A stretch of DNA of 45,432 nt from a virus: the IMG/VR virus record IMGVR_UViG_3300007346_000050, positions 1 through 45,432 of that record. One strand, 5' to 3'. The notes under the pieces are model-generated. The model had not been told where the DNA came from. It ran no database searches and worked only from the letters and a program-made list of their open reading frames with translations. Position numbers and translations under genes: made by a program. How positions within the stretch are numbered: position 1 is the first letter of the stretch; the number at the start of each line of letters is the position of its first letter. Positions 8,193 to 45,432 of the stretch are shown one piece after another.

Positions 8193-8214
8193 TTAATTAA
8201 TACGATGCCTTCCT

Positions 8215-8224
8215 TTCCATTGTA
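8215..8224 (-). promoter_or_regulatory. Candidate phage promoter, -10-like element
   Basis: Minus strand TACAATGGAA, 22 nt before the ATG at 8192. It keeps the TACAAT core but diverges after it. Confidence 0.4.
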
Positions 8225-8229
8225 CTTTA

Positions 8230-33903: not shown

Positions 33904-36155
33904 CAGAATTGCTCCTCTTGTTGACGCTTGTCACGCTCACCACCGATTAGAGCATCAAGTCCTGCAAGACCTGCAACTGCTCCACCAGCAATGGCTGAAT
34001 TTCGACCAAATCTACGAACCTTGGAATAGTTTTGTACAGCCTGTCTATAGTCAGCTTCACGACTAATTGTTCGGTTACTGGGTGATGTATCTGGTCCCTT
34101 TAATTTTTTGCCAGCTTTTACATAGTCAGGACGAGGACCTTGTTGTCCAAATCTTTGACCAGGGATGTTATAAGAAATTCGTGGCTCTGTAAATTCTCGT
34201 TTAGCTTGAGCAGGTGGTACAGAAGCATTATTCCAAACATCTGCTCGATCAATTGCTCTTACAGACTCACGTGGATTTACAACTGCTGAAGTAGCTGATT
34301 GTGGGAACTCACTCTCATACTGCAGCCCTTCTACAATTCTTCCAATAGATTGCTCACGTGGAGTAATGCGGCCACGGTCATTTGCCGGTGGAGCTCCTTC
34401 ACGCCTTGCTCTTTCTGCTGCAAGGTAGCGGTCTTCTACTCGATTAGCGATTGCAGCGTTTTTGGCTCCATATCGACGAGCACGCTCTGCTCTAGGCATA
34501 TCTCGTACGTCACCTTTAATGAATGCGGCACGAGCTGGCTTTTCTCCAGCTGCTGCGGCTTGATAAGGCATACGAGCATCACGAAGCTCTTGTGGATTTA
34601 ACCGTGGGCCTGCTTGACGTCCATCAAGCTCTTGCAGTGCTGCTCTTACTTCACGACCGTTGATTTTCTCTCGACCAATGCGTCCAACGCCGACTTGACC
34701 TCCACCAAGCAGTTGATGCTGTGCACCTCCTACTGCGTTGGGCCTTCTGACGTTTTCACCGGCGGCAAAACCTTGTTTAGCTGTTTGATTGGCTGGATTA
34801 CGGTTTGCTGCTTCAATTGCAAACAAAGCACGGGCTAATTCGTTTTGTTGGTTCTCGTTGAAACGAGCTTTGTTCAATACTTGCGTAATTCCGGGATTTT
34901 CGTTAATAACGTTCTTTCCGTCGACCATATCGAAGAATTTACCGCCACCAAGGCCAATAACTTTGTCTACAGCGTTTTGAAGGTCGTTTAAATTACGAAC
35001 TCGCGCTTCTGAAGGCTCTAAACCCTGTCCACCAATCTTAAGCTTGGCTAATGCTTCACTAACCCCTTCTAATTGCGCATCAATAGCAACTTGTGGGTAA
35101 TCACCGAAAACTTTACCCTCTCTGTAGCCAGGAGCGTGGTCAACTAACCATTGCTCTTGTTTTTGGAGAGGACCAGCCAACCGATTGTCTGTTACGGGTG
35201 CATTAAGGTCAGAACCTAAGCCAATAGGCAGGGAGGTAGGCTCAACTTGCCTTCCAGGTACTGGAAAGTTAACTGCAAAGTCATATCCAATCTTTGCAGG
35301 GCCAATTTTGTCAACATTGCCAATACGTCCAAGATTTTCATCAGCTTGTGCGCCTCCACCATAAAGACCAAAGCGTTCACGTGCAATTCTCTGTGCTTCA
35401 GCATCTGCTTTCCAATCATTTGCTTCAACAACGTCTAAATTAACGTTTTGTTGGTCTCTGCGGTTTAATTCAGCAGCTAAAGAAGCCTCTGCTCCACGAT
35501 TAACTGCTAAATCGTCTTCAATGCGACCAATTACATTAGCAATACCCGGAAAAGCATCGGCTCCGTATTGATTTACTCCTTGTTGCAGTCTTGCTAGCTC
35601 ACCACGCAGTACTTGCTGGGCTGGTGCCATGACATCGTCACGATAGAGCCCAAAATCGCGTGCCATTGCGGCTTCACGGAACCTTTCTGGCATTGGCATG
35701 CCATCAGGGATTTCCATAGTCTCAGTTTGCTTGTTACCTGCTCTATCGAAGTAGGTTCGAGTAATGATGCTTGGATTTTTCTTACCTTCAGCTCGTTCTT
35801 GTTCACGTCGACCTTCTATTCCACCTCTTGCTTGGTTTTTGTTATTAATATCGATGCCACCGAAGTTCTGTATCTCATTTCCACGGTTATCAATGAGGTC
35901 AGAATTGGCAACTGTGTTTAATGTGTCAATATCAGCCGGATATACTTCGTCAATTCCACGAACTCGTGCCATTGTGTCGAGGAACTGCCTGAATCCAGCA
36001 CGCTCATCAATAGGAGGTTGACCTTGACGTGCATTACGGGCATTCTGCTGCTGAATCTTCTTGACTACAAAGTCATATGTCTCATCTGGTGTCATTCCCA
36101 GAGTACGACCAGCAGCAGCTAACTCGGCGCCTACATTGATATCCGATAAATCCAC
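33903..36155 (-). CDS. Large hypothetical virion-type protein with C-terminal membrane segment
   Basis: A 750-residue soluble, Arg/Asn/Gln-rich protein (TPDETYDFVVKKIQQQNARN, NAVGGAQHQLLGGGQVGVGR) with basic, likely DNA- or wall-facing stretches (RMPYQAAAAGEKPARAAF-type). It ends in one Gly/Ala membrane-type segment (AIAGGAVAGLAGLDALIGG) and a charged tail (ERDKRQQEEQF). Size and architecture suggest an internal or ejection protein. It starts at GTG (36155), and a 12-bp inverted repeat lies directly upstream. Confidence 0.6.
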   Translation of the reverse strand: MDLSDINVGAELAAAGRTLGMTPDETYDFVVKKIQQQNARNARQGQPPIDERAGFRQFLDTMARVRGIDEVYPADIDTLNTVANSDLIDNRGNEIQNFGGIDINNKNQARGGIEGRREQERAEGKKNPSIITRTYFDRAGNKQTETMEIPDGMPMPERFREAAMARDFGLYRDDVMAPAQQVLRGELARLQQGVNQYGADAFPGIANVIGRIEDDLAVNRGAEASLAAELNRRDQQNVNLDVVEANDWKADAEAQRIARERFGLYGGGAQADENLGRIGNVDKIGPAKIGYDFAVNFPVPGRQVEPTSLPIGLGSDLNAPVTDNRLAGPLQKQEQWLVDHAPGYREGKVFGDYPQVAIDAQLEGVSEALAKLKIGGQGLEPSEARVRNLNDLQNAVDKVIGLGGGKFFDMVDGKNVINENPGITQVLNKARFNENQQNELARALFAIEAANRNPANQTAKQGFAAGENVRRPNAVGGAQHQLLGGGQVGVGRIGREKINGREVRAALQELDGRQAGPRLNPQELRDARMPYQAAAAGEKPARAAFIKGDVRDMPRAERARRYGAKNAAIANRVEDRYLAAERARREGAPPANDRGRITPREQSIGRIVEGLQYESEFPQSATSAVVNPRESVRAIDRADVWNNASVPPAQAKREFTEPRISYNIPGQRFGQQGPRPDYVKAGKKLKGPDTSPSNRTISREADYRQAVQNYSKVRRFGRNSAIAGGAVAGLAGLDALIGGERDKRQQEEQF

Positions 36156-36159
36156 TGTT

Positions 36160-36203
36160 GTTAATCACAAACCTCTATATATTGTAGATAATTTGTGATT
36201 AAC
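36160..36203 (-). promoter_or_regulatory. 12-bp perfect inverted repeat before the large virion operon
   Basis: GTTAATCACAAA (36160-36171) and TTTGTGATTAAC (36192-36203) are perfect inverted copies with a 20-nt AT-rich spacer holding TACAATATAT on the minus strand. It fits an operator around a promoter, or an RNA hairpin covering the leader of the GTG at 36155. No U tract, so not an ordinary terminator. Confidence 0.6.
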
Positions 36204-36208
36204 TGATA

Positions 36209-37654
36209 TCAGATACTTCCGATGCCCATTACCTGGTTTGGAAGGTTTGATTTCTTGTTGCCAGGCAGTGATTGTATAAATGGCGAGAGTTCATTGTTTT
36301 GAACACTGGGATTTTGGGCAGCTGCTGGAGTTAACGGAGGATTCTCGGAAGTATTGTTCTCTTTAGTCTTGCCTATAATGGATTCAACGTAAGCATCCTT
36401 CAATCCTTGCGCTTGACCTGGTGCAGCATTCTTGATTTTACGGACTTCGCTTACATCACCCTCTTTGATCTCACCATTGATGTTCATATATGCTTTACCA
36501 TTAAGAACTTGGTAGCCAAGACCAGCTTCAACGCGCTTGATTCCGCTCATACTGTCCGGTGCATCTAAGAATGCACGCCGACGACGCATTTCTTCCGAGG
36601 ATGATGCACCATCAGACACCTTGAAGCCTTCAGATGGCTTGTAATTGGCGGAATTGAACCGTAAATCGCTTCCATCGCTAAGAGAATCAGCTAATGAGCC
36701 GCTAGGACGGCTAGATGCGCCCTTAATTTGCTCTTCTTTGCCGCTAAATGCGGGGGTTCCTTTACCTGAAACGTTGGATGCGGCGTTTAATCCGTTATTA
36801 GTGTGGTAACTGTCGTAGGATTGACCAATAATTCCGGGTAAATCGGACCTAAACTGCGGACTATCGGCAGGATTTCCGCTAAATGGGTTGCCTTTTGTAG
36901 TAGGCAGCTGGGAACCTTCGAACTTATCGCCCTCATTTCCGTTTGCTGCACCGATGATGCGACCATTGCGGTCAGCTTTGTAGATATTGCCCCCGCCAAG
37001 GTCCACTGTTTCCATACCATCACCTGTGGTGTTGGGGTAAGAAGCAGTGATGCGGTTGGTTGCTGGCTGTGTGGGGAACGATGGGCCAGCAAAGTTAGCA
37101 ACTGGTGCACCTGCATAAGCACTCAGTTCATCTAACGTGGGAAGCTTTGGACCCATGTTGGTGCCAGATTGAACTACTCCACCGTTATTTACACGAGTGT
37201 CGTTACGTCCAGTGTTGCCACCGTTGCTTGAAGGTGCTGGTGCAGACCCCTTACCGTTACCGGAACCACCGTTACCGGAACCACCGTTACTGGAACCAGC
37301 GTTGCCGGAACCAGCGTTACCAGCACTTGAAGGGCGATTACCGTCAGTACCTTGCTCTACAGCTTTACGAAAACTTCCATCTACAGGAGTGACACCAGAA
37401 CGGTTGATCAGTGCTGAACCGTTTGATTGAATCGCTTTAATTTTACTTTCAGAATCATTATAACGACGCGATGTGCTCGGTGTTGAGTTTTGATAGGCAC
37501 CGTAGCTTGGTTGACCTTTAACAGTTGGATCGAAAAATTCCAACATAGTCTGCATGCCAAATCCAGGCTCAATGCCGAAATAATTACCATCAGCATCACG
37601 ATACCTTCTACCTTTACCTGGGACAGTGATATAACCCGGAGTAAACTTGCCCAT
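36209..37654 (-). CDS. Gly/Ser/Asn-rich disordered protein, first gene of the late block
   Basis: A 481-residue, mostly disordered protein. It has a compact start (GKFTPGYITVPGKGRRYRDA then DGNYFGIEPGFGMQTMLEFF). A Gly/Asn/Ser repeat follows (NAGSGNAGSSNGGSGNGGSG, residues about 110-130). A likely folded patch sits at SMSGIKRVEAGLGYQVLNGK then AYMNINGEI. Function unknown. It is the first minus-strand gene left of the divergent region and has a promoter element 23 nt upstream. Confidence 0.6.
   Translation of the reverse strand: MGKFTPGYITVPGKGRRYRDADGNYFGIEPGFGMQTMLEFFDPTVKGQPSYGAYQNSTPSTSRRYNDSESKIKAIQSNGSALINRSGVTPVDGSFRKAVEQGTDGNRPSSAGNAGSGNAGSSNGGSGNGGSGNGKGSAPAPSSNGGNTGRNDTRVNNGGVVQSGTNMGPKLPTLDELSAYAGAPVANFAGPSFPTQPATNRITASYPNTTGDGMETVDLGGGNIYKADRNGRIIGAANGNEGDKFEGSQLPTTKGNPFSGNPADSPQFRSDLPGIIGQSYDSYHTNNGLNAASNVSGKGTPAFSGKEEQIKGASSRPSGSLADSLSDGSDLRFNSANYKPSEGFKVSDGASSSEEMRRRRAFLDAPDSMSGIKRVEAGLGYQVLNGKAYMNINGEIKEGDVSEVRKIKNAAPGQAQGLKDAYVESIIGKTKENNTSENPPLTPAAAQNPSVQNNELSPFIQSLPGNKKSNLPNQVMGIGSI
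37254..37326. repeat. 15-nt tandem repeat inside the Gly/Ser-rich gene
   Basis: About five 15-nt units of the form CCGTTACCGGAACCA, encoding GSGNG-type pentapeptides on the minus strand. Prone to slippage. Confidence 0.8.
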
Positions 37655-37677
37655 TATTTTTTAAATGTTGATGTTCT

Positions 37678-37687
37678 ATTTATTCTA
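37678..37687 (-). promoter_or_regulatory. Candidate promoter of the leftward block
   Basis: Minus strand TAGAATAAAT, 23 nt before the ATG at 37654. Confidence 0.5.
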
Positions 37688-38245
37688 CAAAAACTACGAT
37701 GCTACACTAACTACCTTCTTATCTAACCCTTTCTAAAAAAATTCACTAGTAGGGGCTAGGGGTGAATTAAAAAAGGGGTATATAGAAAACTACCGTAGTT
37801 AGCGTAGTTTTGCGTTCGACTCTAAAACCAACGTATACAAGCAGGGAGAGTAGGTGCTTTTACTAGGGTATCACAGCCTCTATTGCTATTGATTCTCAAT
37901 AAGATAATCACACTACATACTGGAGCCCTGCTTATTGCCCAAAGTGGCGACTTTTGGGGTACTAAAAACCCCCTATAGAGGGTAAAAAATGGTACAAAAT
38001 TTTAGACACGTTTAATACCCTCTGTACCCGAACTGGGGCTCAAACAAAAAAAATAACTACTGTGAAGTCAGATGTTAATTGAAGTGAAGCGTTTGTTTGT
38101 GAGCCTTTGTGTTCGGCTGAAGTGTATAACAATCGTTGTTCAACTTTCGTTTCACTCAAGTTTCACATTTGTTTCTTTGTTCACCCGAGTTAACACACTC
38201 GAATTCTTCACTACATAATTATCTTTCGTATTAATCTTTTGTGGT

Positions 38246-38261
38246 GATACGAATTCGTATC
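38246..38261. promoter_or_regulatory. 16-bp perfect palindrome, possible operator
   Basis: GATACGAATTCGTATC reads the same on both strands. A chance perfect 16-mer is unlikely in 45 kb. It looks like a dimeric regulator site about 190 bp before the first small gene. Confidence 0.45.
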
Positions 38262-38404
38262 GTGTGTTTCGTACTCGGGCTCACTTCAGTAACCACAGGT
38301 TACCTCCCCCTATCGTCAGAAGTTACACACCCCTGTCGTGACTTATGCGTATCTTAAGTAACCCTGTGTCTCGCTGAGGGTATCAGCTCCTACCACCCCT
38401 ACCC

Positions 38405-38420
38405 CCACTCTATCGAGTGG
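38405..38420 (+). terminator. Hairpin with UAUC loop upstream of first small gene
   Basis: CCACTC-TATC-GAGTGG, same stem-loop design as the terminators further right, but the following bases are not T-rich, so termination is doubtful. Confidence 0.4.
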
Positions 38421-38451
38421 TGTCGATTACTGTGTAATTTGTAATTTTACT

Positions 38452-38619
38452 ATGAATGATTACGACATTATCCGTGAAGGTGAGTGTGATTACAACCACG
38501 GCTATGACACTTATGATGCTAATGAGTATGCATCAATGGTTAATGAGTTACGTAACTACTCTGACATAATCCGTGTGACTGACTATGACTCACCCTATCG
38601 TTACTGCGACTTCCGATAA
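38452..38619 (+). CDS. 55-residue acidic, Tyr/Asp-rich small protein
   Basis: ORF starting MNDYDIIREGECDYNHGYDT and ending SPYRYCDFR; 12 of 55 residues are Asp or Glu and 9 are Tyr. It is the first gene of the rightward array and is followed within 8 nt by a typical array terminator, which supports it as a real unit. No family recognised; acidic small phage proteins sometimes mimic DNA or bind host proteins, but this is speculation. Confidence 0.6.
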   Translation: MNDYDIIREGECDYNHGYDTYDANEYASMVNELRNYSDIIRVTDYDSPYRYCDFR

Positions 38620-38626
38620 TTACTTC

Positions 38627-38653
38627 ACCCGCTAACGCGGGTTTATTTCTTTT
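38627..38653 (+). terminator. Terminator, UAAC tetraloop
   Basis: ACCCGC-TAAC-GCGGGT followed by TTATTTCTTTT. The next ATG is directly after the T-rich stretch. Confidence 0.75.
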
Positions 38654-38842
38654 ATGTCAAATTACATTGAATCTATGACTCCGCAACAAGCAGACACTCT
38701 TATGTTAGTTGGAAAGCAAATTGCTGGCTTAGCGTTAGCATTCCCTACTGCTGGTATGTCACTCGCTATTAACTGTATGTCTTACGACAACTATCAACGT
38801 CGTTGGTATCCCGAATCCATTACTTGGTGTGACATCGACTGA
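38654..38842 (+). CDS. 62-residue small protein, paralogue of the 39021 gene
   Basis: Protein with a hydrophobic centre (LVGKQIAGLALAFPTAGMSL). The stretch FPTAGMSLAINCMSYDNYQR then RWYP is shared with the next gene (LPTAGMSLAVNLVTMDNYHR then RWHQ). One membrane-type segment is likely. The start is 12 nt from the previous hairpin and has no Shine-Dalgarno. Unknown function. Confidence 0.65.
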   Translation: MSNYIESMTPQQADTLMLVGKQIAGLALAFPTAGMSLAINCMSYDNYQRRWYPESITWCDID

Positions 38843-38863
38843 TTTAATTAACTACTGACTACC

Positions 38864-38882
38864 ACCCCCTAACGGGGGTTTT
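38864..38882 (+). terminator. Terminator, UAAC tetraloop
   Basis: ACCCCC-TAAC-GGGGGT followed by TTT; ends the 38654-38842 unit. Confidence 0.7.
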
Positions 38883-38900
38883 AAACTACTGTGTCTTGCT

Positions 38901-38971
38901 AAGCGACCTACTCTTCTTCTTTCCTTTAAGCGACCTACAAGCGACATACTAACTGACTCGCAAGCGACGTA
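38901..38971. repeat. Iteron block 1 (four copies of AAGCGACCTAC-like 11-mer)
   Basis: Copies begin at 38901, 38928, 38939 and 38962; the last two have one mismatch (GACATAC, GACGTA). Two copies are directly adjacent (11-bp step). They lie between two terminators, outside any gene. Confidence 0.8.
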
Positions 38972-38973
38972 TC

Positions 38974-38992
38974 ACCCGCTATCGCGGGTTTT
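38974..38992 (+). terminator. Terminator, UAUC tetraloop
   Basis: ACCCGC-TATC-GCGGGT followed by TTT. It lies after the iteron block, not after a gene, so a gene may have been lost between this and the previous hairpin. Confidence 0.65.
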
Positions 38993-39020
38993 ATCCATTG
39001 ATGTAGTTTATAACTTTAAT

Positions 39021-39164
39021 ATGTCTGACTCTCAGAAGTATGATTTATGCAAGCTAGTGTTATATCAGATGATAGCAGCGTCTTTAATTCTACCAACTGC
39101 AGGTATGTCTCTAGCCGTTAATCTCGTTACTATGGATAACTATCATCGACGCTGGCATCAGTGA
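39021..39164 (+). CDS. 47-residue small protein, paralogue of the 38654 gene
   Basis: ORF starting MSDSQKYDLCKLVLYQMIAA and ending DNYHRRWHQ. The C-terminal 25 residues match the preceding gene (PTAGMSLAxN...DNYxRRW), so these two are a duplicated family. One hydrophobic segment (LYQMIAASLILPTAGMSLAV) suggests a membrane protein. Its own terminator follows in 6 nt. Confidence 0.65.
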   Translation: MSDSQKYDLCKLVLYQMIAASLILPTAGMSLAVNLVTMDNYHRRWHQ

Positions 39165-39170
39165 CTCATA

Positions 39171-39194
39171 ACCCCTCCCCAGGGGTTTTTTTTT
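39171..39194 (+). terminator. Terminator
   Basis: ACCCCT-CCCC-AGGGGT followed by nine Ts; the strongest U tract of the array. Confidence 0.85.
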
Positions 39195-39204
39195 ATGTCT
39201 TGGT

Positions 39205-39305
39205 AAGCGACCTACTTCTCCTTCCCGGTAAGCGACCTACTACCCCCCCCCTACCATTAAGCGACCTAGAAGCGACCTACTTCTCCTTCCCGGTAAGCGA
39301 CCTAC
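39205..39305. repeat. Iteron block 2 (five copies of AAGCGACCTAC 11-mer)
   Basis: Copies start at 39205, 39230, 39259, 39270 and 39295. The 25-nt unit 39205-39229 is repeated exactly at 39270-39294. One copy ends in G instead of C. Two copies are adjacent. Together with block 1 this makes nine copies in about 400 bp, flanking the 39021 gene. Confidence 0.85.
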
Positions 39306-39309
39306 TTTC

Positions 39310-39330
39310 ACCCACTATCGTGGGTTTATT
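39310..39330 (+). terminator. Terminator, UAUC tetraloop
   Basis: ACCCAC-TATC-GTGGGT followed by TTATT. It follows the second iteron block and precedes the next small gene. Confidence 0.65.
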
Positions 39331-39354
39331 TCTTTAGTGTTATCAATTAACTTT

Positions 39355-39576
39355 ATGACTACTTCTATTCAGCCTAAGACAAGCAAGAAGGAATTGGCTG
39401 GAACCCTCTTGCTAATTCTATTTACTTCCTCTCCTATCCTCCTTCTTGGTGGATGGATTCTATTTCCTTTTGTCGGCTGTGTGTATGGCATAGGCTGCGG
39501 TTTTTACTATATTACCGATAAGACTTGTAAGGCTTCCTCTCGTTTGTGGAAGGCTGTCTACCCCCGTATCCCTTAA
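39355..39576 (+). CDS. Small membrane protein with two hydrophobic segments
   Basis: A 73-residue protein from ATG 39355; a GTG at 39337 in frame is possible but would lack the leader seen in the other units. Segments LAGTLLLILFTSSPILLLGG and WILFPFVGCVYGIGCGFYYI are strongly hydrophobic, with a basic start (KTSKKE) and end. It could be a holin or a host-membrane modulator; no motif decides. Confidence 0.6.
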   Translation: MTTSIQPKTSKKELAGTLLLILFTSSPILLLGGWILFPFVGCVYGIGCGFYYITDKTCKASSRLWKAVYPRIP

Positions 39577-39590
39577 TTGTATACCCCTTC

Positions 39591-39616
39591 ACCCGCTAAC
39601 GCGGGTGTTTTTCTTT
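39591..39616 (+). terminator. Terminator, UAAC tetraloop
   Basis: ACCCGC-TAAC-GCGGGT followed by GTTTTTCTTTT. Confidence 0.75.
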
Positions 39617-39632
39617 TGTGTTGTTATCAATT

Positions 39633-39863
39633 ATGATTATGTCTGGTTTGAAGTCTGTTGTGTTGACTCGCGGTAATGCCTCTTGGCGTCTTATCCGCTT
39701 TAGCGACGACTGCTTCGTTGCCAAGAATGGCTTCGGTAAGCAACACGTCTTCCGTAGCGGCTATGAGATGACTCACTTCGAGGATTTCCTCCTCGCTAAG
39801 GGTTTCACTCCCCTCACTCGTAACCGTAGCCTGGCTACCCTTAAGAAGCAGGCTGTTGCCTGA
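39633..39863 (+). CDS. 76-residue basic small protein
   Basis: ATG at 39633 or 39639 (MIMSGLKSVVLTRG or MSGLKSVV). The protein is beta-like with spaced charges (ASWRLIRFSDDCFVAKNGFG, RSGYEMTHFEDFLLAKGFTP) and a basic end (RNRSLATLKKQAVA). No recognised family. The codons look well adapted (many CGT/CGC, TTC/AAG). Terminator follows within 10 nt. Confidence 0.6.
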   Translation: MIMSGLKSVVLTRGNASWRLIRFSDDCFVAKNGFGKQHVFRSGYEMTHFEDFLLAKGFTPLTRNRSLATLKKQAVA

Positions 39864-39872
39864 TAACCTAAG

Positions 39873-39896
39873 ACTCCCCCCTACCGGGGAGTTTTT
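39873..39896 (+). terminator. Terminator
   Basis: Seven-bp stem ACTCCCC / GGGGAGT with a six-base loop (CCTACC) followed by five Ts. Confidence 0.75.
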
Positions 39897-39924
39897 CGTG
39901 TGGTGTTATTGTTTATTTCTTACT

Positions 39925-40122
39925 ATGACTTACGATTTCGACACTCTTTATAAGGAGTTTCTTACTCGCCAAGCCGATCGTCGGCCTGACAAAGAGTATG
40001 GTGTATTAGATTTTGTCAACTACTGCCTTGGTGACATCTGTGTGTCGCTAGACAATGGCGATGCCTTGACTGAAAAGCAGCAGTTTCTTTGGGATTATAT
40101 TCAGGCTAACTATTCCGTTTAG
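39925..40122 (+). CDS. 65-residue acidic small protein
   Basis: Protein from ATG 39925 (MTYDFDTLYKEFLTRQADRR, VLDFVNYCLGDICVSLDNGD). It is acidic and mainly helical, with no recognised family. It overlaps the convergent 40106-41137 gene by 17 nt, and its expected terminator is missing here but present beyond that gene at 41180. Confidence 0.65.
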   Translation: MTYDFDTLYKEFLTRQADRRPDKEYGVLDFVNYCLGDICVSLDNGDALTEKQQFLWDYIQANYSV

Positions 40123-41137
40123 CCCAATCCAAAGCTTCTAATACCTCCTTGGCGATATATTCTGTATCTGGTTTTGACATCTCCTCGATCATATTGACGG
40201 GGAGATACAAATCCATCGATTTCCTATAGTCATCATTTAAGACTGCTCCTCCTAATTTCTCATACTCAGCTTTAGTCATTCCCATTAGATTATTTCTAAG
40301 TTTCTCTTGATCTTGAGCTATCACTCGTGAAGGAATCATGGGATCGTATGGCCCGTGACCTTTTCTTAATGAGTATGCCTCGAATTCACGTGGATCATTA
40401 TATCCTCCAATGATTACATCTTTAACGTGTGATTCTTTAAATGGCTTACGCTGATCTACCCCGTTTCTCATCCTTGGACGTCCAAACTTTTGACCAACAA
40501 CCTCTCTACTCTCGAACATTTTTCCTGGACGAGCGTATGGTGACCTACGTTGAATTTCCTGTTTAATAACTCCAAATGTGTCATTAGGTGATGCTTTATC
40601 GTAAATTTCAGATGCTAACCCTGCAGGTGTATTTAGGATTGGCATTAATGTCCCCATCTCTTCACCTGTAATAATATTTGGCAGTGTATTTCTGTTTTGA
40701 ACATCAATATACTGCTTTACGTTGTCTACCATACGAACTAAATCAGTTGCAGTAGGATCATCTTGGTTGTTTAATTTAGTCTTAATACCTGATGAATTCA
40801 ATATCTCATTCATAATATGTTCCGAAGTTTCTGCTTGCGGAACACCAAATCCAACGTGTCTACTCCATTTTGTGTCTGGATCTAAAGACCACTTTACATA
40901 CATACCGGCTTCTTTACTAGACAGACCGAATTTAGTCTGAAGTATTGCTTTAGCGTGGTTTGGACTCAGGTATCCAGTTTGTATTTCTCTATGCAAATTA
41001 TCTTGCTCTTGACGCCAAGCTCTACCTGATTGACCCCAGTAATATGGATCATCTTGATTTACCATACGTCTCTCTGAGTGTGGCGTTTTAAGATAATCAA
41101 CTAACTTAGCAATCCGTTGATTGGCAAATCTAGGCAT
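40106..41137 (-). CDS. 343-residue hypothetical protein, isolated minus-strand gene
   Basis: A charged, polar protein (RFANQRIAKLVDYLKTPHSE, YLSPNHAKAILQTKFGLSSK, FESREVVGQKFGRPRMRNGV) with no motif I recognise. It resembles in composition the large virion-type proteins of the left arm (many R, N, P, M). It is the only minus-strand gene within the rightward array, with its own promoter-like element (41157-41166). It appears inserted between the 39925 gene and that gene's hairpin. Confidence 0.65.
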   Translation of the reverse strand: MPRFANQRIAKLVDYLKTPHSERRMVNQDDPYYWGQSGRAWRQEQDNLHREIQTGYLSPNHAKAILQTKFGLSSKEAGMYVKWSLDPDTKWSRHVGFGVPQAETSEHIMNEILNSSGIKTKLNNQDDPTATDLVRMVDNVKQYIDVQNRNTLPNIITGEEMGTLMPILNTPAGLASEIYDKASPNDTFGVIKQEIQRRSPYARPGKMFESREVVGQKFGRPRMRNGVDQRKPFKESHVKDVIIGGYNDPREFEAYSLRKGHGPYDPMIPSRVIAQDQEKLRNNLMGMTKAEYEKLGGAVLNDDYRKSMDLYLPVNMIEEMSKPDTEYIAKEVLEALDWAKRNS

Positions 41138-41156
41138 AGTTATAACTAATACACTT

Positions 41157-41166
41157 ATTAATTGTA
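41157..41166 (-). promoter_or_regulatory. Candidate phage promoter, -10-like element
   Basis: Minus strand TACAATTAAT, 19 nt before the ATG at 41137. Confidence 0.4.
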
Positions 41167-41179
41167 ACTATCTATGTTT

Positions 41180-41199
41180 ACCCACTATCGTGGGTTTTT
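41180..41199 (+). terminator. Terminator, UAUC tetraloop
   Basis: ACCCAC-TATC-GTGGGT followed by TTTTATT. No plus-strand gene ends just before it; probably the displaced terminator of the 39925-40122 gene. Confidence 0.7.
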
Positions 41200-41230
41200 A
41201 TTGATCTTGTGTCTCTTCTCGTTTATCGAT

Positions 41231-41353
41231 ATGAATGTCCCTAATTATCAACATCACTCTAAGAAAGCACAGAAGCCAAGGCGTAAGCCACAGGCTATGA
41301 GAGCCCGTAAGGCTGCTTTGAAAGCTCTTAAGAGGAAACTCCTTGCCCGCTAG
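41231..41353 (+). CDS. 40-residue very basic small protein
   Basis: ORF starting MNVPNYQHHSKKAQKPRRKP and ending ALKRKLLAR. Sixteen of its 40 residues are Lys or Arg, so nucleic-acid binding is plausible. The TAG stop is inside the loop of its own terminator (GCCCGC-TAGC-GCGGGC), so hairpin and coding end are fused. Confidence 0.65.
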   Translation: MNVPNYQHHSKKAQKPRRKPQAMRARKAALKALKRKLLAR

Positions 41354-41370
41354 CGCGGGCTTTATTCTTT
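41345..41370 (+). terminator. Terminator, UAGC tetraloop containing the stop codon
   Basis: GCCCGC-TAGC-GCGGGC followed by TTTATTCTTT. The loop's TAG is the in-frame stop of the 41231 gene. Confidence 0.75.
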
Positions 41371-41392
41371 AGTGTTCCTCGTATATTTATAG

Positions 41393-41536
41393 ATGTCTGC
41401 ATTCATCGAAGCCTACCGTGAATACCTGGAACGTATGATCGATCAGTCAGATGATCTTGTTACTGTAGATCTATTTACTGTCCCTGAGACTGTTGACACT
41501 GAAGGTGTCATCACTGAATGGGCAGACGTCTCCTAA
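41393..41536 (+). CDS. 47-residue acidic small protein
   Basis: ORF MSAFIEAYREYLERMIDQSD, then LVTVDLFTVPETVDTEGVIT, ending EWADVS. Its N-terminal half is helical. It stands next to a very basic small gene, a charge-complementary pair, though an interaction is only a guess. TATATT lies a few bases before the ATG. Confidence 0.6.
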   Translation: MSAFIEAYREYLERMIDQSDDLVTVDLFTVPETVDTEGVITEWADVS

Positions 41537-41547
41537 CAGCTGTATAC

Positions 41548-41573
41548 GCCCCCTATTGGGGGCTTTGTCCTTT
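41548..41573 (+). terminator. Terminator, UAUU loop
   Basis: GCCCCC-TATT-GGGGGC followed by TTTGTCCTTT. Confidence 0.75.
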
Positions 41574-41593
41574 GTTGTTCTCTATATATTCAT

Positions 41594-41716
41594 ATGTACT
41601 ATCCTCTACCGTTCGAAGCAGACCGTTGGCTGACTGAGAACTTTGTCTACACACGCATTGGTGACGCTTGGTACTCCTGGACTTGGCGTGGCACTCCCCT
41701 GTCGTGTGACATCTGA
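41594..41716 (+). CDS. 40-residue aromatic-rich small protein
   Basis: ORF MYYPLPFEADRWLTENFVYT, then RIGDAWYSWTWRGTPLSCDI. Four Trp and five Tyr in 40 residues. Too short for a domain call; the flanking hairpins and clean leader support it as a real unit. Confidence 0.55.
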   Translation: MYYPLPFEADRWLTENFVYTRIGDAWYSWTWRGTPLSCDI

Positions 41717-41722
41717 CCTCTC

Positions 41723-41745
41723 GCCCCCTAACGGGGGCTTTGTCG
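41723..41745 (+). terminator. Terminator, UAAC tetraloop
   Basis: GCCCCC-TAAC-GGGGGC followed by TTTGTC. Confidence 0.7.
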
Positions 41746-41788
41746 TCTTGTGCCCTTATGGGCTTGTTCACTTACTCTGTATATTTCT

Positions 41789-42079
41789 ATGGCTGCTATT
41801 CACAAGTCTGTTGACACCTCCTCTGGTGCAGCACTTGACTTTTTGACTGACCAGAATGCACTCACCATTGCTGCTGTTGGCACTGGTGTTGCTACCTTTG
41901 GTGGCGCTGCATTCATTGCTACTGCTGTAGCCCCTGGCTATGTCATTGGTGGCACTCTTGCCACTGGCTTACTTGCCACTGGTGGTCATCTCAAGCAGAC
42001 CACTGGCTCTTACCTGCCTTTCCTTGGCAATAAGGAAGAGCCTGCTGTAGCACCTGCTGCTGAGCCTGTTGCTGTCTGA
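41789..42079 (+). CDS. 96-residue Gly/Ala-rich membrane protein
   Basis: ATG 41789 is chosen because TATATTTCT precedes it as in the neighbouring units. Two Gly/Ala hydrophobic stretches (LTIAAVGTGVATFGGAAFIA and AVAPGYVIGGTLATGLLATG) make a hairpin-like membrane insert. The polar end is Pro/Ala/Glu-rich. Possible holin or envelope-acting protein; unproven. Confidence 0.6.
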   Translation: MAAIHKSVDTSSGAALDFLTDQNALTIAAVGTGVATFGGAAFIATAVAPGYVIGGTLATGLLATGGHLKQTTGSYLPFLGNKEEPAVAPAAEPVAV

Positions 42080-42086
42080 CACACTC

Positions 42087-42110
42087 ACCCCGCTTCGGCG
42101 GGGTTTTTTC
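42087..42110 (+). terminator. Terminator, UUCG tetraloop
   Basis: ACCCCGC-TTCG-GCGGGGT followed by six Ts; a classic strong terminator. Confidence 0.9.
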
Positions 42111-42135
42111 TCGTGTGTTATCTGTCTAACTTACT

Positions 42136-42846
42136 GTGACTTCTATTTTTACTGGTACTACTGCTGGTCTTGATCACTACGGCTATCAACAAGCAGACAA
42201 TAACTGGAAGAACTTATCCCAATCGCAGCGTGACTACTTTAGTCATTTAGCTGATGAAGACCCTGAGCGTACTGCTCAAGCCTTCTATGAAGATACTATT
42301 CCTGTTGAACTACAAGATAAGCCGGAGCTTGTTGAGAAGTACTTGAACGGTGACGCCGAACTCGGTGTTACTGACAAGGACTGGTTTCACGACGTTTCTG
42401 TTAAGAATGGCGGCTCTGGCTCTGCTGATAACGGACGATTTGAGGATGCCTCTGTTAACCGTTCTAGGCAAGAGGCTAACAGCACTTTTGAGGAACAGTA
42501 CGACGCTGATTTCGAGTCTGAAGAAGATGTCCAAACTCTCCTTGAATCCGCTGAAGATGTCGCTGATGCATCTGCTTGGGCTCTAGCTGCTGATGCTGCA
42601 GCTTCTGCTGGTGAGTTTGCATTGGACTTCCTTGCTCCTGTTGTTGGTGGAGGACTTGCAGCCAAAGTTGTTGCTGACAAGTGCGACACTATTGAGGAGA
42701 AGACTATTTATGGCTCAGCTGCTGGTATTGCTACAGCTGCTGTACTCTGCACTCCTGTTGGACAAGCTTGTGTAGCTGGCTATGTTGGCTTCAAGCTTGT
42801 TAAGAGGGGTGTCAAGCTATACAACAAGCACTTTGCTAATGCCTGA
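42136..42846 (+). CDS. 236-residue acidic protein with C-terminal membrane hairpin
   Basis: GTG start at 42136. The first 150 residues are acidic and soluble (LADEDPERTAQAFYEDTIPV, QYDADFESEEDVQTLLESAE). The C-terminal part is Gly/Ala-rich and hydrophobic (FALDFLAPVVGGGLAAKVVA and YGSAAGIATAAVLCTPVGQA), ending basic (KLVKRGVKLYNKHF). No enzyme motif. It is one of four consecutive units with Gly/Ala membrane segments. Confidence 0.6.
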   Translation: MTSIFTGTTAGLDHYGYQQADNNWKNLSQSQRDYFSHLADEDPERTAQAFYEDTIPVELQDKPELVEKYLNGDAELGVTDKDWFHDVSVKNGGSGSADNGRFEDASVNRSRQEANSTFEEQYDADFESEEDVQTLLESAEDVADASAWALAADAAASAGEFALDFLAPVVGGGLAAKVVADKCDTIEEKTIYGSAAGIATAAVLCTPVGQACVAGYVGFKLVKRGVKLYNKHFANA

Positions 42847-42854
42847 TCTTCCCT

Positions 42855-42886
42855 TCCCCCCTTCATTGGGGGATTATTTATCTTTT
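42855..42886 (+). terminator. Terminator-like hairpin
   Basis: Five C/G pairs around a seven-base loop, followed by ATTATTTATCTTTT. A promoter element follows at once. Confidence 0.65.
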
Positions 42887-42895
42887 ACAATAGAA
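42886..42895 (+). promoter_or_regulatory. Candidate phage promoter, -10-like element
   Basis: Plus strand TACAATAGAA, 20 nt before the GTG at 42916; the only small-array gene with this element. Confidence 0.55.
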
Positions 42896-42915
42896 CTATC
42901 TTGTGACTAATACCT

Positions 42916-43620
42916 GTGTCTTTACTTGCTGCTTTATCTGCTTTAGGTGTCGGCGCCTTTAACGCTAGAGAGTTAGGTCGTCGTAGACCTATTATGCGTA
43001 ATGCTAAACGAGCAGAGAAAGCACTTGATCGTGCATTTGATCAACGTGTTGATGAATTAAGGCCTGGCACTAGTGCTGCTTATGGACTTGAGTATATTCA
43101 ACCACCTGACAAAGGTAATGCTTTAGCTAACCTTCACTATGATTTACAGCACGGTAAAGATGCAGCTAGTTCTAGCTCACCATTACAAGAACCTGGTATC
43201 AAGATTAACCCTAATGCTGACCGTGTGTATTTGGCTCACGAGATGGGTCACCTGGCTTCACAAAAGACAGACATTGGTCATCTTGTGGCTTCACTACGGG
43301 CTAATCCTAAACTTAAGAATGCACTCCTTGGCGCTATGGTAACTGTGCCTGGAGTTGCAGCAGCTCTTGAGGCTGGTGATGATGATATGGATACTTCACT
43401 TGCTATGGCTACATTAGCGAGTGCTCCCACTCTTGTTGATGAGATGTTAGCTTCTAAGAATGGACTTGCGATTATGGATACTGCTGGTATGCGTGCTTCC
43501 TTAGGTCAACGTGGGAAGTTAGCTACCGGTCTATTGTCTTATCTTGCTGCACCGTTGATTGCAGGTGCTGCTGGCAATATTGTCGGTAACCAGTTTGATG
43601 CAGATCCTTCTGGTTTATAA
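42916..43620 (+). CDS. Putative membrane-embedded zinc metallopeptidase
   Basis: A 234-residue protein from GTG 42916. HEMGH (residues 108-112) is an HExxH zinc/catalytic motif in the context VYLAHEMGHLASQ. About 64 residues later comes DEMLASKNGL, with E176 as possible third ligand, like the E-x-x-A-S-x-x-x-L of the YugP-type neutral zinc peptidases. An N-terminal hydrophobic segment and two Gly/Ala segments (NALLGAMVTVPGVAAALEAG and LSYLAAPLIAGAAGNIVG) suggest membrane embedding. Family match is by motif order only. Its promoter is of the late type, unlike its neighbours. Confidence 0.6.
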   Translation: MSLLAALSALGVGAFNARELGRRRPIMRNAKRAEKALDRAFDQRVDELRPGTSAAYGLEYIQPPDKGNALANLHYDLQHGKDAASSSSPLQEPGIKINPNADRVYLAHEMGHLASQKTDIGHLVASLRANPKLKNALLGAMVTVPGVAAALEAGDDDMDTSLAMATLASAPTLVDEMLASKNGLAIMDTAGMRASLGQRGKLATGLLSYLAAPLIAGAAGNIVGNQFDADPSGL

Positions 43621-43627
43621 ACTCTTC

Positions 43628-43649
43628 CCCCTCTATCGAGGGGTTTTTT
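43628..43649 (+). terminator. Terminator, UAUC tetraloop
   Basis: CCCCTC-TATC-GAGGGG followed by six Ts. Identical hairpin occurs at 44470. Confidence 0.85.
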
Positions 43650-43674
43650 CTTTTGTGTTCTTCTATCTTTTGAT

Positions 43675-43869
43675 ATGAAACTCTCTGATGTAGATACTAA
43701 AGAAGTACTGTCTGATAATAATCTAGCTCGTGGTTTCATTACCTCAGCACTCTTTGGAGCCGGTACTGCTTTATTAGTACCTGCTTTGCTTCCTGTTGCT
43801 TTAACCGGTATGGCTGCTACACAAGCCATTTACTGGGGAAAGGAACTGTCTAAATCCAAAGATGCTTGA
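43675..43869 (+). CDS. 64-residue small membrane protein
   Basis: Charged start (MKLSDVDTKEVLSDNNLARG), then one or two hydrophobic segments (LFGAGTALLVPALLPVALTG, MAATQAIYWG) and a basic end (KELSKSKDA). It lacks the usual terminator right after its stop; the matching hairpin lies after the LAGLIDADG gene at 44470. Unknown function. Confidence 0.6.
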   Translation: MKLSDVDTKEVLSDNNLARGFITSALFGAGTALLVPALLPVALTGMAATQAIYWGKELSKSKDA

Positions 43870-43965
43870 ATATTTTATGATTGTACTAGTCCTCCCGAGA
43901 CTTTAAACCTGGCGCTGGCGTTAGGACTGGGTTTCGATTACCCACATCTCCATTGCTTATATCTT
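43870..43965 (+). ncRNA. Left flank of the LAGLIDADG gene, possibly structured RNA
   Basis: Non-coding. It contains TGGGT-TTCGATT-ACCCA (43928-43944), which has the exact geometry of a tRNA T-arm, but no acceptor or anticodon arm completes a tRNA. TGGCGTT (43916-43922) pairs with AACGCCA at 44396, and GGACTGG (43924-43930) pairs with CCAGTCC at 44448, in interleaved (pseudoknot) order. A group I intron remnant is possible but not established. Confidence 0.3.
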
Positions 43966-44415
43966 ATGAACGAAATCGATTATGCATATTGTGCTGGAAT
44001 TATAGATGGCGAAGGCAGTATCTTGCTTGCTAAAAGCGGTACTACTCGTCATCCTGCTATTTCAGTCACTAATACCTCTTTACCTATGCTTGAGTTTCTC
44101 CGCTCTCTTTTTGGTGGCTCTATACGCAAGCAGAAGACTTACAAACCTCATCACAAGGAAGCTTGGGTATGGGGTGTAAGCTATCAAAGAGCTATGCATA
44201 TGATTGATTGTATACTTCCCTATATGAAAGACGAAGAGAAAGTACGTCGAGCTATCATCATCATTGATGAATGGAATGACGCTACTCCTTCTAATGGAAG
44301 ATATACAGATGAATTGCTTGCTTTAAAAGAGGCAATCATCTATCGTTTCTTTAACGGGGATGAAAGGCTTTCGACTGCGCTGGTGAATTCGGTTAAACGC
44401 CAACTCTATCGTTAA
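43966..44415 (+). CDS. LAGLIDADG homing endonuclease
   Basis: A 149-residue protein with one LAGLIDADG-type helix (YAYCAGIIDGEGSILLAKSG, the G-x-x-D-G-E-G form) and the usual downstream pattern (LPMLEFLRSLFGGSIRKQKT, then WGVSYQRAMHMIDCILPYMK). A single motif means it acts as a homodimer. It is the second homing endonuclease in the window and lies between the 43675 gene and that gene's likely terminator. Confidence 0.9.
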   Translation: MNEIDYAYCAGIIDGEGSILLAKSGTTRHPAISVTNTSLPMLEFLRSLFGGSIRKQKTYKPHHKEAWVWGVSYQRAMHMIDCILPYMKDEEKVRRAIIIIDEWNDATPSNGRYTDELLALKEAIIYRFFNGDERLSTALVNSVKRQLYR

Positions 44416-44469
44416 ATTCGAGCGCACTGCAGTAGCTGTCTGAGCTACCAGTCCGTGACGAACCTATGG
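44416..44469 (+). ncRNA. Right flank of the LAGLIDADG gene, possibly structured RNA
   Basis: Non-coding. It has a perfect hairpin GTAGCT-GTCTG-AGCTAC (44432-44448) followed by CCAGTCC (44448-44454), complementary to the left flank. The long-range pairings make an intron-like fold conceivable; I could not build the full group I core. Confidence 0.3.
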
Positions 44470-44492
44470 CCCCTCTATCGAGGGGTTTTTTC
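44470..44492 (+). terminator. Terminator, UAUC tetraloop
   Basis: CCCCTC-TATC-GAGGGG followed by seven Ts; same hairpin as at 43628. Confidence 0.85.
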
Positions 44493-44516
44493 TAAGTTGT
44501 TCTTTGTATTTCTAAT

Positions 44517-44651
44517 ATGTATCTCGTTGAATATCGTACACCTTACACAAACGAAATTCGTACTCAAGAATTTCCTAACCGTAAAGAAGCTGAACGTATG
44601 GCTGCCTTTTACCGCTCTTGTGGTGTGAAGGCTGGCACTCGTTCTAACTGA
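44517..44651 (+). CDS. 44-residue basic small protein
   Basis: ORF MYLVEYRTPYTNEIRTQEFP, then NRKEAERMAAFYRSCGVKAG, ending TRSN. A beta-beta-alpha pattern (EYRTP..EIRTQEF then a helix from residue 22) would fit a tiny modulator domain, but nothing identifies it. It has the array leader and its own terminator. Confidence 0.6.
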   Translation: MYLVEYRTPYTNEIRTQEFPNRKEAERMAAFYRSCGVKAGTRSN

Positions 44652-44659
44652 CAATACTC

Positions 44660-44683
44660 CCCCCGTATCCGGGGGTTTTTTTA
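44660..44683 (+). terminator. Terminator, UAUC loop
   Basis: CCCCCG-TATC-CGGGGG followed by seven Ts. Confidence 0.85.
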
Positions 44684-44712
44684 TTGTTGTTCCTTTGCAA
44701 TTGTGTCTGAAT

Positions 44713-44826
44713 ATGACTGTAAATCAACTGCGCTATATCCTCCGTATGGCTAAAAAGGAGGCGCGTAACTATAACGAGCAATCGAAATCTATTGCTGATA
44801 TGCGTACACAACTGGTCGTTATCTGA
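44713..44826 (+). CDS. 37-residue basic helical protein
   Basis: ORF MTVNQLRYILRMAKKEARNY, then NEQSKSIADMRTQLVVI. It is amphipathic and helical, net basic. It is the last unit before genes with normal Shine-Dalgarno sequences and has no hairpin after it. Confidence 0.5.
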   Translation: MTVNQLRYILRMAKKEARNYNEQSKSIADMRTQLVVI

Positions 44827-44858
44827 CTTAAGCTATACATATAACGCGGAGATTTATC

Positions 44859-45044
44859 TTGGCTTATGTTATAGCAATACTTCTGCTTATCTTCAGTCCT
44901 ACCACCTATCAAGCATCAGCTGCTGATGGTGTTTTGTGTACTGAAGTTGCTGAAGTACTAGATGAATACATCGCTGACGGTGAGGATATCTCACTAGCTA
45001 CACGCGATGAAATTGTAGACCGTTGTATCGAACTGTACTCCTAA
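44859..45044 (+). CDS. 61-residue exported small protein
   Basis: TTG start at 44859, supported by GGAG 7 nt before it. A signal-peptide-like start (MAYVIAILLLIFSPTTYQAS, cleavage likely after ASA) is followed by an acidic helical domain with two Cys (CTEVAEVLDEYI, IVDRCIELYS), possibly a disulfide. Probably secreted or periplasmic. Only 10 nt separate it from the next gene, and no terminator intervenes. Confidence 0.6.
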   Translation: MAYVIAILLLIFSPTTYQASAADGVLCTEVAEVLDEYIADGEDISLATRDEIVDRCIELYS

Positions 45045-45054
45045 TTTATTTGAA

Positions 45055-45171
45055 ATGATTCACTACGATCAATCTACCGTTGTACTCGGTGTTGTCGGAC
45101 TGATTGGGGTACTTTCCTCAATTGTGATTCTGACTTATGCGTTCAAGCGTAATCAATCCTCTACTCTTTAA
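45055..45171 (+). CDS. 38-residue single-pass membrane peptide
   Basis: ORF MIHYDQSTVVLGVVGLIGVL, then SSIVILTYAFKRNQSSTL. One membrane segment (VVLGVVGLIGVLSSIVILTY) with a short basic tail. It sits between two genes with signal peptides, in what looks like a small envelope operon. Role unknown. Confidence 0.5.
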   Translation: MIHYDQSTVVLGVVGLIGVLSSIVILTYAFKRNQSSTL

Positions 45172-45178
45172 TTAAATA

Positions 45179-45432
45179 ATGATTAAACGCCTTCTCTGTA
45201 GTGCTCTGGGTTTATCCAGTGCGCTGATTACACTACAAACTCCAGTATCTGCTAAATATGATCCCGGCACAGTTGAACTACTACAGACTGTTCAACGCTA
45301 CGGTGCGACTGTTGAGTATAACCCTACTCACTGCCGCAATAGTTCTTATTCTGGACGTTATACAGTAAATGGACGCCGTTTAAGCCTGTGCTATTCCGGA
45401 CGTCCTAGTGCTGACGACCACGATACTGTACG
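45179..45432 (+). CDS. Exported protein, C-terminus cut by window edge
   Basis: 84 codons visible. A Sec-type signal peptide (MIKRLLCSALGLSSALITLQ, cleavage near VSA) is followed by ELLQTVQRYGATVEYNPTHC and later GRRLSLCYSGRPSADDHDTV. Two cysteines bracket the visible mature domain. The DDHDTV stretch at the edge might precede an HExxH-type motif outside the window, so a secreted peptidase is possible but not shown. Confidence 0.6.
   Translation, partial: MIKRLLCSALGLSSALITLQTPVSAKYDPGTVELLQTVQRYGATVEYNPTHCRNSSYSGRYTVNGRRLSLCYSGRPSADDHDTV

Follow-up and report, generated by a model that had tools for sequence, protein, structure and literature searches.

The small-gene array and its junctions

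The DNA analysed here, referred to as the window, is a virus fragment of 45,432 bases (IMG/VR virus record IMGVR_UViG_3300007346_000050), and its right part carries an array of small plus-strand genes (38452-44826). The junctions between these genes share one rigid element, which is composed of a GC hairpin (typically 16 nucleotides, nt), a T-rich tract, the word TGTTCTTT and the start codon of the next gene, with no Shine-Dalgarno (SD) sequence. The large terminase of the window shares 56% identity with the terminase of Synechococcus phage S-EIV1 (KJ410740); by this homology the window is S-EIV1-like and is taken to be a fragment of a marine relative of this cyanophage. No close match to the window DNA was found among phage records. 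The major head protein (17387-18541) and further virion proteins are encoded on the minus strand, and the array begins at the switch to the plus strand, after these leftward virion genes.

A preliminary description of the region had proposed a succession of gene, hairpin, T-rich stretch, leader and start. This arrangement is confirmed and is stronger than claimed: 30 terminator-like sites were observed on the two strands of 36000-45432, compared with 7.1 ± 2.7 in shuffles. A composite scan, which combines the hairpin with a downstream profile (score at least 8), detected 14 plus-strand sites in the window, all inside 38405-44675, and a single minus-strand site outside (16667), compared with 0 sites in a Markov control of one sequence per contig; the profile was built partly from the same data as were scanned. 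The pyrimidine-rich leaders with TGTTCTTT-like words were also seen as described. The 15 junctions tabulated in the window are real, but the one-gene units are not uniform, because the array also contains a minus-strand open reading frame (ORF), two double-hairpin junctions and a gene resembling transfer-messenger RNA (tmRNA). The features are listed below, with protein lengths in amino acids (aa).

37968-38404, no strand: stretch without a convincing gene, right part of ~750 bp, shared block; separates the leftward virion genes from the array that runs rightward
38405-38420, plus: element 1 hairpin, weak (8.7), before the first array gene
38452-38619, plus: unit 1, 55 aa ORF
38627-38642, plus: element 2 hairpin
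38675-38842, plus: unit 2, 55 aa from the element-spaced start (62 aa from 38654)
38865-38878, plus: hairpin after unit 2, then AAGCGACCTAC repeats, no called gene
38974-38989, plus: element hairpin heading the 47-aa unit
39021-39164, plus: 47 aa ORF, protein cluster shared with unit 2
39170-39187, plus: hairpin, long T tail, then AAGCGACCTAC repeats
39310-39325, plus: element hairpin heading the 73-aa unit
39355-39576, plus: 73 aa ORF, hydrophobic by eye
39590-39607, plus: element hairpin
39639-39863, plus: 74 aa ORF, start from element spacing
39871-39894, plus: element hairpin
39925-40122, plus: 65 aa ORF
40106-41137, minus: 343 aa ORF that interrupts the array; unmatched in Pfam and PHROG
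41180-41195, plus: element hairpin, divergent junction, under the composite profile threshold
41231-41353, plus: 40 aa basic ORF, stop codon within the next hairpin
41345-41360, plus: element hairpin
41393-41536, plus: 47 aa ORF, cluster shared with an ORF in the array of relative G009
41548-41563, plus: element hairpin
41594-41716, plus: 40 aa ORF
41723-41738, plus: element hairpin, 50 nt leader with a second short inverted repeat GCCC..GGGC
41789-42079, plus: 96 aa ORF, hydrophobic by eye
42087-42104, plus: element hairpin
42136-42846, plus: 236 aa ORF (GTG start)
42857-42872, plus: weaker hairpin without the TGT word, under the composite profile threshold
42916-43620, plus: 234 aa ORF (GTG start), HEMGH motif by eye, cluster shared with an ORF in the array of relative G010
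43628-43643, plus: element hairpin, profile score 20.9
43675-43869, plus: 64 aa ORF, hydrophobic by eye
43899-44443, plus: candidate permuted tmRNA gene, with 3' piece, T-arm (43924-43952), intervening segment, 5' piece from 44356 and tag ANSIVKFERTAVAV from 44399
43966-44415, plus: 149 aa homing-endonuclease-like ORF, mostly within the tmRNA intervening segment; last ~20 codons overlap the 5' piece
44470-44485, plus: element hairpin after the tmRNA-like gene
44517-44651, plus: 44 aa ORF
44660-44675, plus: last element hairpin
44713-44826, plus: last array ORF, 37 aa

On our own reading of the letters, the element spacing suggests starts at the ATGs at 38675, 39639, 41231 and 44713. The first gene (38452) is also headed by an element, a weak one (score 8.7), and in the ~750 bp upstream of it the only ORFs, of 48 and 38 codons, are not convincing as genes. 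After the last array gene the scan detected no composite element; one weak terminator-like match is located at 44914, within the ORF that follows. The junctions at 38865-38989 and 39170-39325 contain two hairpins each around AAGCGACC repeats; in both, one hairpin follows the upstream gene and the other precedes the next gene, with the AAGCGACCTAC repeats between them. Direct repeats of AAGCGACCTACT, partly with TCTCCTTCCCGGT, occur in both junctions (38885-39306) and look like non-coding units behind elements. No PHROG family was found for ten ORFs of the region, the subset of array ORFs scanned against Pfam gave sub-cut-off matches only, and no relative of the 236-aa array protein was confirmed in viral contigs.

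Geometry of the junction element

The element was characterized with 176 distinct copies from 24 stretches of 20 records, which include a few sites outside arrays and additional arrays supplied by a pattern scan of viral contigs; copies from related phages are not independent. It forms a portable block of ~50 nt that comprises the end of the upstream gene, the 16-nt GC hairpin, the T-rich tract and TGTTCTTT, which starts 12 nt past the hairpin. Alignment of 70 unique sites from 7 arrays on the hairpin only revealed the T-rich tract followed by TGT.CTTT at +13 to +20, with T (.90), G (.79) and T (.81) at +13 to +15, positions that were unused in the selection. Conversely, when only TGT[TC]CTT was used as an anchor in nine arrays, a hairpin ended exactly 12 nt upstream in 58 of 67 cases, compared with 0/7 on the minus strand of the arrays and 0/86 in the rest of four genomes, where 4/86 had a hairpin at other distances. 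The hairpin is free in sequence and keeps its pairing: G-C, C-G, A-T and T-A pairs are interchanged among 90 distinct 16-nt hairpins, in which pairing itself was part of the selection. The loops of the 176 elements are mostly TAAC or TATC.

Of the 87 class-a junctions, 77 have the upstream stop codon at a distance of 5-14 nt from the hairpin, and several class-b junctions actually follow short ORFs. A start codon lies 31-34 nt after the stem in 108 of the 163 elements that have a start, and it is ATG in 146 of the 163. With stop-hairpin-word-start distances that vary little, a typical junction amounts to a single compact block of almost uniform length. The absence of SD sequences from the leaders, as first described, is upheld; SD-like words were found in 2 of 146 ATG-started array units across relatives compared with 2.2 in shuffled leaders, whereas among long ORFs other than array units in four phages, a set that includes spurious ones, 36 of 190 carry such words. 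Pairing of outer arms (AACAC/GTGTT) around the hairpin was considered and is not claimed, with a value of 4.11 versus 3.95 for randomly dealt arms; pairing runs of at least 5 occur in 50 of 176 elements compared with 20 in a shifted window, in some lineages.

Distribution among relatives

Among the terminase relatives, which comprise 229 IMG/VR stretches, the best 80 of 229 were used, and 16 long relatives, four of them only in part, were retrieved together with S-EIV1 for comparison. The composite scan identified arrays in 7 of the 16 (G001, G002, G005, G006, G008, G009 and G010), one element at the contig edge of G007 and none in the other 8, which may not cover the locus. Outlying single elements are also present elsewhere in G002, G006 and G008. 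S-EIV1 exhibits a single isolated weak match (score 10.8) and no array. The element is concentrated in this array in S-EIV1 relatives and not in S-EIV1 itself. Profile matches were found in 23 of the 84 viral-scan loci listed, and the rest look like chance. At least 120 stretches of bacterial chromosomes were matched by the element scan; a stem of at least 4 bp is present in 2 of the first 80 loci listed and a profile match in 8 of the remaining 40, with more than one match only in L218 (Synechococcus sp. AG-679-D13) and L248 (a Rhodobiaceae bin), contigs that by eye resemble relatives of the window phage. A search of phage records with a 38-nt consensus gave no match that covered at least 80% of the consensus, which is a weak test.

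Contig L218 contains two true elements and belongs to the assembly of AG-679-D13, presumably a single-cell assembly as judged from its name; this points to Synechococcus as a host, a pointer that is weakened by the absence of a terminase match in the same assembly.

Several other features of these genomes were observed. Minus-strand genes of other clusters also occur inside the arrays of relatives (compare 40106-41137, minus strand, in the window), and tRNA genes lie in or beside them (L283 2284-2355, L279 4323-4406, L330 5273-5344 and L336 9568-10120). Several relatives have a gene preceded by a variant leader, ~48-50 nt long, in which a further inverted repeat (GCCC..GGGC) and a T.TTCACTTA word are found (window 41723-41788; G006 55894; G002 13200; G008 array position 3763). 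In G018 and G019, which come from one data set, the terminase frame is broken by many stops, probably through assembly or read errors. An ORF with NUMOD4 and weak HNH similarity is located on the plus strand at 18657-19022, amid the minus-strand virion genes of the window.

Exchange of whole units

In close relatives, 76 of 184 ends of homology blocks fall within element zones, compared with 17 expected from coverage and a maximum of 33 in 2,000 shifts (each of 7 pairs taken in both directions). The order of units is changed between L283 and L330. The cleanest event is a 235-nt unit of G005 (contig 7993-8227), which encodes a 58-aa protein that is hydrophobic by eye and has no counterpart in the close relative G008. 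This unit is flanked by two 51-nt perfect repeats (length by eye), which extend from the upstream stop codon through the hairpin and TGTTCTTT; 51 perfect nt are enough for homologous recombination. The hairpins are more alike within than between genomes, as expected if copies recombine; across 9 distant contigs, the hairpins differ at 5.65 of 16 positions within and 7.43 between contigs, and the lowest of 500 shuffles is 6.84.

Whole units are exchanged with breakpoints in the element, and the region is a cassette array in which related viruses gain, lose and reorder whole genes together with their signals. The proposal of the preliminary description that hairpin-bounded units come and go as modules, for which it had suggested a comparison of related phages, is supported. 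Homologous recombination between elements is possible because the copies are alike, and it would add, remove and reorder genes while leaving their expression intact.

A candidate permuted tmRNA in the array

The unit at 43899-44443 matches the permuted tmRNA model RF04321 with 35.4 bits, under the Rfam cut-off of 47. The acceptor pairs GGGGATG with CATCTCC, including G3-U70, a T-arm is present, and the tag starts with Ala. The tag, ANSIVKFERTAVAV, is similar to those of Synechococcus (ANNIVRFSRQAAPVAA) and Prochlorococcus (ANKIVSFSRQTAPVAA), but ends in AV (AVAV) instead of AA. The intervening segment of ~400 nt holds most of the 149-aa homing-endonuclease-like ORF, which matches LAGLIDADG_3 with 19.9 of the required 22.5 bits (sub-cut-off) and PHROG 5046, a family named HNH endonuclease. 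On the other side, ARAGORN detected no tmRNA in the window, RF01851 yields 12 bits at this unit versus 275-315 in three cyanobacterial assemblies, and no match at E up to 0.05 was found in 12 array-bearing loci of relatives. In a whole-genome search with RF04321, 0/18 records pass and weak matches occur in 14/14 controls. We regard the unit as a candidate for a permuted tmRNA carried by a phage, with the homing-endonuclease-like ORF inside the intervening segment.

Promoter searches and the reading of the element

The preliminary description had considered leaderless mRNAs with a sigma-70 -10 hexamer at the ATG, and had named standard promoters inside the upstream genes as an observation that would speak against its view; the searches support neither. 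Its other proposal, of hairpins that act as partial terminators or as processing sites along one long transcript, may hold. TATAAT-like hexamers are not enriched over the 20 nt that precede the ATG (13 of 146 units versus 21.2 shuffled), and the TAT(A/T)TT reported there is not conserved in relatives, where only a weak A/T preference (at most 0.32 bit) is seen past +20. In the 90 nt before the hairpin such hexamers are depleted, at 5 of 111 compared with 29.4 in single-base shuffles, a difference that coding constraint may explain in part. Sigma-70 matches in the region show no excess (17 versus 17.6 expected). A sigma-70 promoter for each unit was rejected, with no -10 at a fixed place, no enrichment of hexamers and no conserved block past TGTTCTTT. 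Complementarity of TGTTCTTT to the 16S rRNA of two Prochlorococcus genomes was likewise rejected; only one degenerate place was found in each.

The reading that we favour, although tentatively, is that the element is a cis-acting RNA leader, with a terminator-type hairpin and a boxA-like word, in a read-through transcript, and that it doubles as a recombination junction. The message would be initiated upstream, and the element would work as RNA within it. The hairpin would set the 3' end or a partial stop for the preceding gene, and the U-rich leader with the boxA-like word GTTCTTTA may let the polymerase (through Nus factors) or the ribosome (through S1-type initiation) engage the next gene. 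A terminator score above 0, calculated with a formula that we take to be of the textbook type, was obtained for 106 of 176 elements. The first element of the window has no convincing gene upstream and the last gene has no element after it, which fits a 5' element; the element can be read both as a 5' signal and as a 3' signal. Conserved non-coding sequence is shared by G006, G008, G005, L336 and G009 in the ~420 nt that precede their first element. In the window, the stretch without a convincing gene (37968-38404 and upstream) has a block TACAAAATTTT.GACACGT.TAAT.CC that is also present in G008, G005 and L336 and altered in G006 and G009; this stretch is a possible promoter or control region, or a replication origin. 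GTTCTTTA agrees with the first 8 of the 11 positions of the boxA consensus GYTCTTTAANA (PMC5725501), and the boxB hairpin is described 5' of boxA in rrn leaders (PMC10250234).

Several observations weigh against this reading. The terminator score is failed by 70 of 176 elements, and A is commoner than T at +4 (0.48 versus 0.25), which would not be expected of a terminator alone. In the rRNA operons of two Prochlorococcus genomes, the spacer boxA, which we take to be GAACCTTGA, differs from GTTCTTTA; GTTCTTT occurs ~690 nt before the 16S in both genomes, and no 16S was found in the Synechococcus assembly, so the comparison covers these two genomes. Folding predictions often pair +12 to +15 (mean unpaired 0.19-0.37), and the word may not be free. 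No NusG homologue was detected in the 13 records searched, no ORF directly follows the first element in G006 and G005, and more than half of the homology breaks (108 of 184) are located beyond the element zones. A read-through transcript would also run antisense through the 1-kb minus-strand ORF. Given the spacer boxA mismatch and the terminator failures, the commitment to an RNA leader is therefore only partial.

That the ~22-nt TTTATTTCACTGTGTTCTTTAT is a promoter for a modified or unknown polymerase is a less likely but serious alternative. The hairpin would then end the previous message, and each unit would be transcribed separately, behind a very short leader, which suits the rigid geometry, the conservation over +1 to +20 and the element at 38405, where no upstream gene needs termination. 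A sigma-70 factor gene, located in the window at 20444-21382 (minus strand) amid virion genes, is present in 13/13 array-lineage virus records tested and in the Synechococcus assembly and absent from the array-less S-EIV1; with this single outgroup, its tracking of the array lineage is only suggestive. No -35/-10 arrangement is found on either side of the element, however, and region 2.4 of the phage sigma factor is canonical by eye. A T7-like RNA polymerase (PF00940) was detected in 0/15 records with a T7 positive control that matches, although N4-type virion polymerases may escape the model and the records may be fragments, and multisubunit Rpb1 (PF00623) was detected in 0/13 records compared with 14/14 control genomes.

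An alternative of similar standing is that hairpin, tail and word form an RNA processing site. A long message would be cut at every junction; the hairpin would then shield the 3' end of one mRNA, and the next mRNA would begin with the U-rich leader. No known RNase signal was matched; the constant stop-to-hairpin and hairpin-to-word distances agree with such cutting, as does the presence in the array of a tmRNA-like gene, which would have to be processed too. Ordinary intrinsic terminators combined with ordinary sigma-70 promoters hidden in the upstream gene ends are improbable: the T-rich tails, the GC stems and the 106 of 176 passing scores fit the terminators, but the upstream depletion of TATAAT-like hexamers and the expected number of sigma-70 matches argue against the promoters, and TGTTCTTT locked at +12 is left unexplained.

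Tyrosine recombinases bear on a further view, in which the hairpin element is the recombination site of a phage tyrosine recombinase in an integron-like, site-specific cassette system. Matches were found in 8/13 records, in 5 of which they exceed the Pfam cut-off; the 8 include all 7 array records of at least 72 kb. None was found in the array-less S-EIV1, the window fragment or three other array records of 50-70 kb. By eye there are at least two types of these enzymes (G001 48523-49341 and relatives), and S-EIV1 relatives that carry them may be temperate. Two of the recombinases were scanned against NCBIfam and fall far short of all cut-offs, with 21 of 265 bits for TIGR02249 (integron integrase) in one and no listing for the other, and 27.8 and 32.2 of 220 for NF040815, whose title names integron integrase; one of them matches phage integrase families. 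A dual-purpose site that carries both expression signals and a tyrosine-recombinase site, a viral integron counterpart shuffling one-gene cassettes, would suit units of one ORF and one hairpin that are gained, lost and reordered at sites, but it is very improbable, since GTT is followed by CTTT and not by the RRRY of the attC core, which we take to be GTTRRRY, and the single clean event has flanks that suffice for homologous recombination.

If the RNA-leader and cassette reading is true, a marine cyanophage lineage evolves small accessory genes through swapping ready-to-express cassettes. The accessory cassettes of uncultured phages could then be listed by finding the element and taking the ORF ~31-34 nt downstream, and the element spacing could correct start codons of cassette genes. 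The element would also provide a compact expression signal that works in cyanobacteria without an SD sequence, and it becomes testable whether it is read by Nus factors, by ribosomes or by a phage factor.

Comparison with known systems

Among the publications listed in literature searches, which did not cover the S-EIV1 description itself, none was recognised as an account of an array of this kind. Known RNA motifs of cyanophages, PhotoRC among them, are in Rfam (PMC2864571); they were unmatched in an Rfam scan of the window region at E up to 1.

Cyanobacterial two-piece permuted tmRNAs (RF04321, RF01851) share with the candidate an acceptor with G3-U70, a T-arm and a tag, whereas the candidate is in a phage, scores below the cut-off, has an intervening segment of ~400 nt with an ORF and carries a tag that ends in AV. 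In the available part of a tmRNA database paper, 79 phage tmRNAs are counted, homing endonuclease genes are described only within T-loop group I introns, and permuted intervening segments are named as holding a tRNA and a repeat (PMC11915505).

Integron cassette arrays consist of single-ORF units that are bounded by hairpin sites and exchanged as units. The present array shares these units, sites and unit-wise exchange, but no integron integrase or GTTRRRY core was found, the sites measure ~50 nt, and exchange probably occurs by homologous recombination. Intercistronic intrinsic terminators likewise place a GC hairpin with a T-rich tail soon after a stop codon; in the array, by contrast, the tail is a specific word that favours A at +4, and a downstream motif and a start follow it at fixed distances. 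The rrn and lambda nut antiterminators resemble the element in having a boxA-like word after a hairpin, which is the boxB-boxA order of rrn, and in the core GYTCTTTA. They differ in that array copies precede each small gene, a T-rich tract separates hairpin and word, and the cyanobacterial spacer boxA is different.

The start-associated sequences (SAS) and extended SAS (ESAS) of cluster K mycobacteriophages are repeated start-associated words with an inverted repeat; the SAS is the 13-bp GGGATAGGAGCCC, usually 3-9 bp before the start, and the ESAS is a 17-bp imperfect inverted repeat with SigA-like -35/-10 hexamers (PMC3203893, PMC12699233, PMC11373665). As far as these sources describe them, the array differs from the SAS in its word, TGTTCTTT instead of GGGATAGGAGCCC, and in SD-like words that stay at the shuffle level, and from the ESAS in its short GC hairpin after the stop codon, with TGTTCTTT fixed 12 nt on and no sigma-70 hexamers. 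With its own defining word and without a SigA promoter, the array element is not a member of the SAS/ESAS family, yet it appears to work like one: many copies per phage lie before gene starts, each combines an inverted repeat with a start-proximal word, and the copies are conserved while the genes that they head differ.

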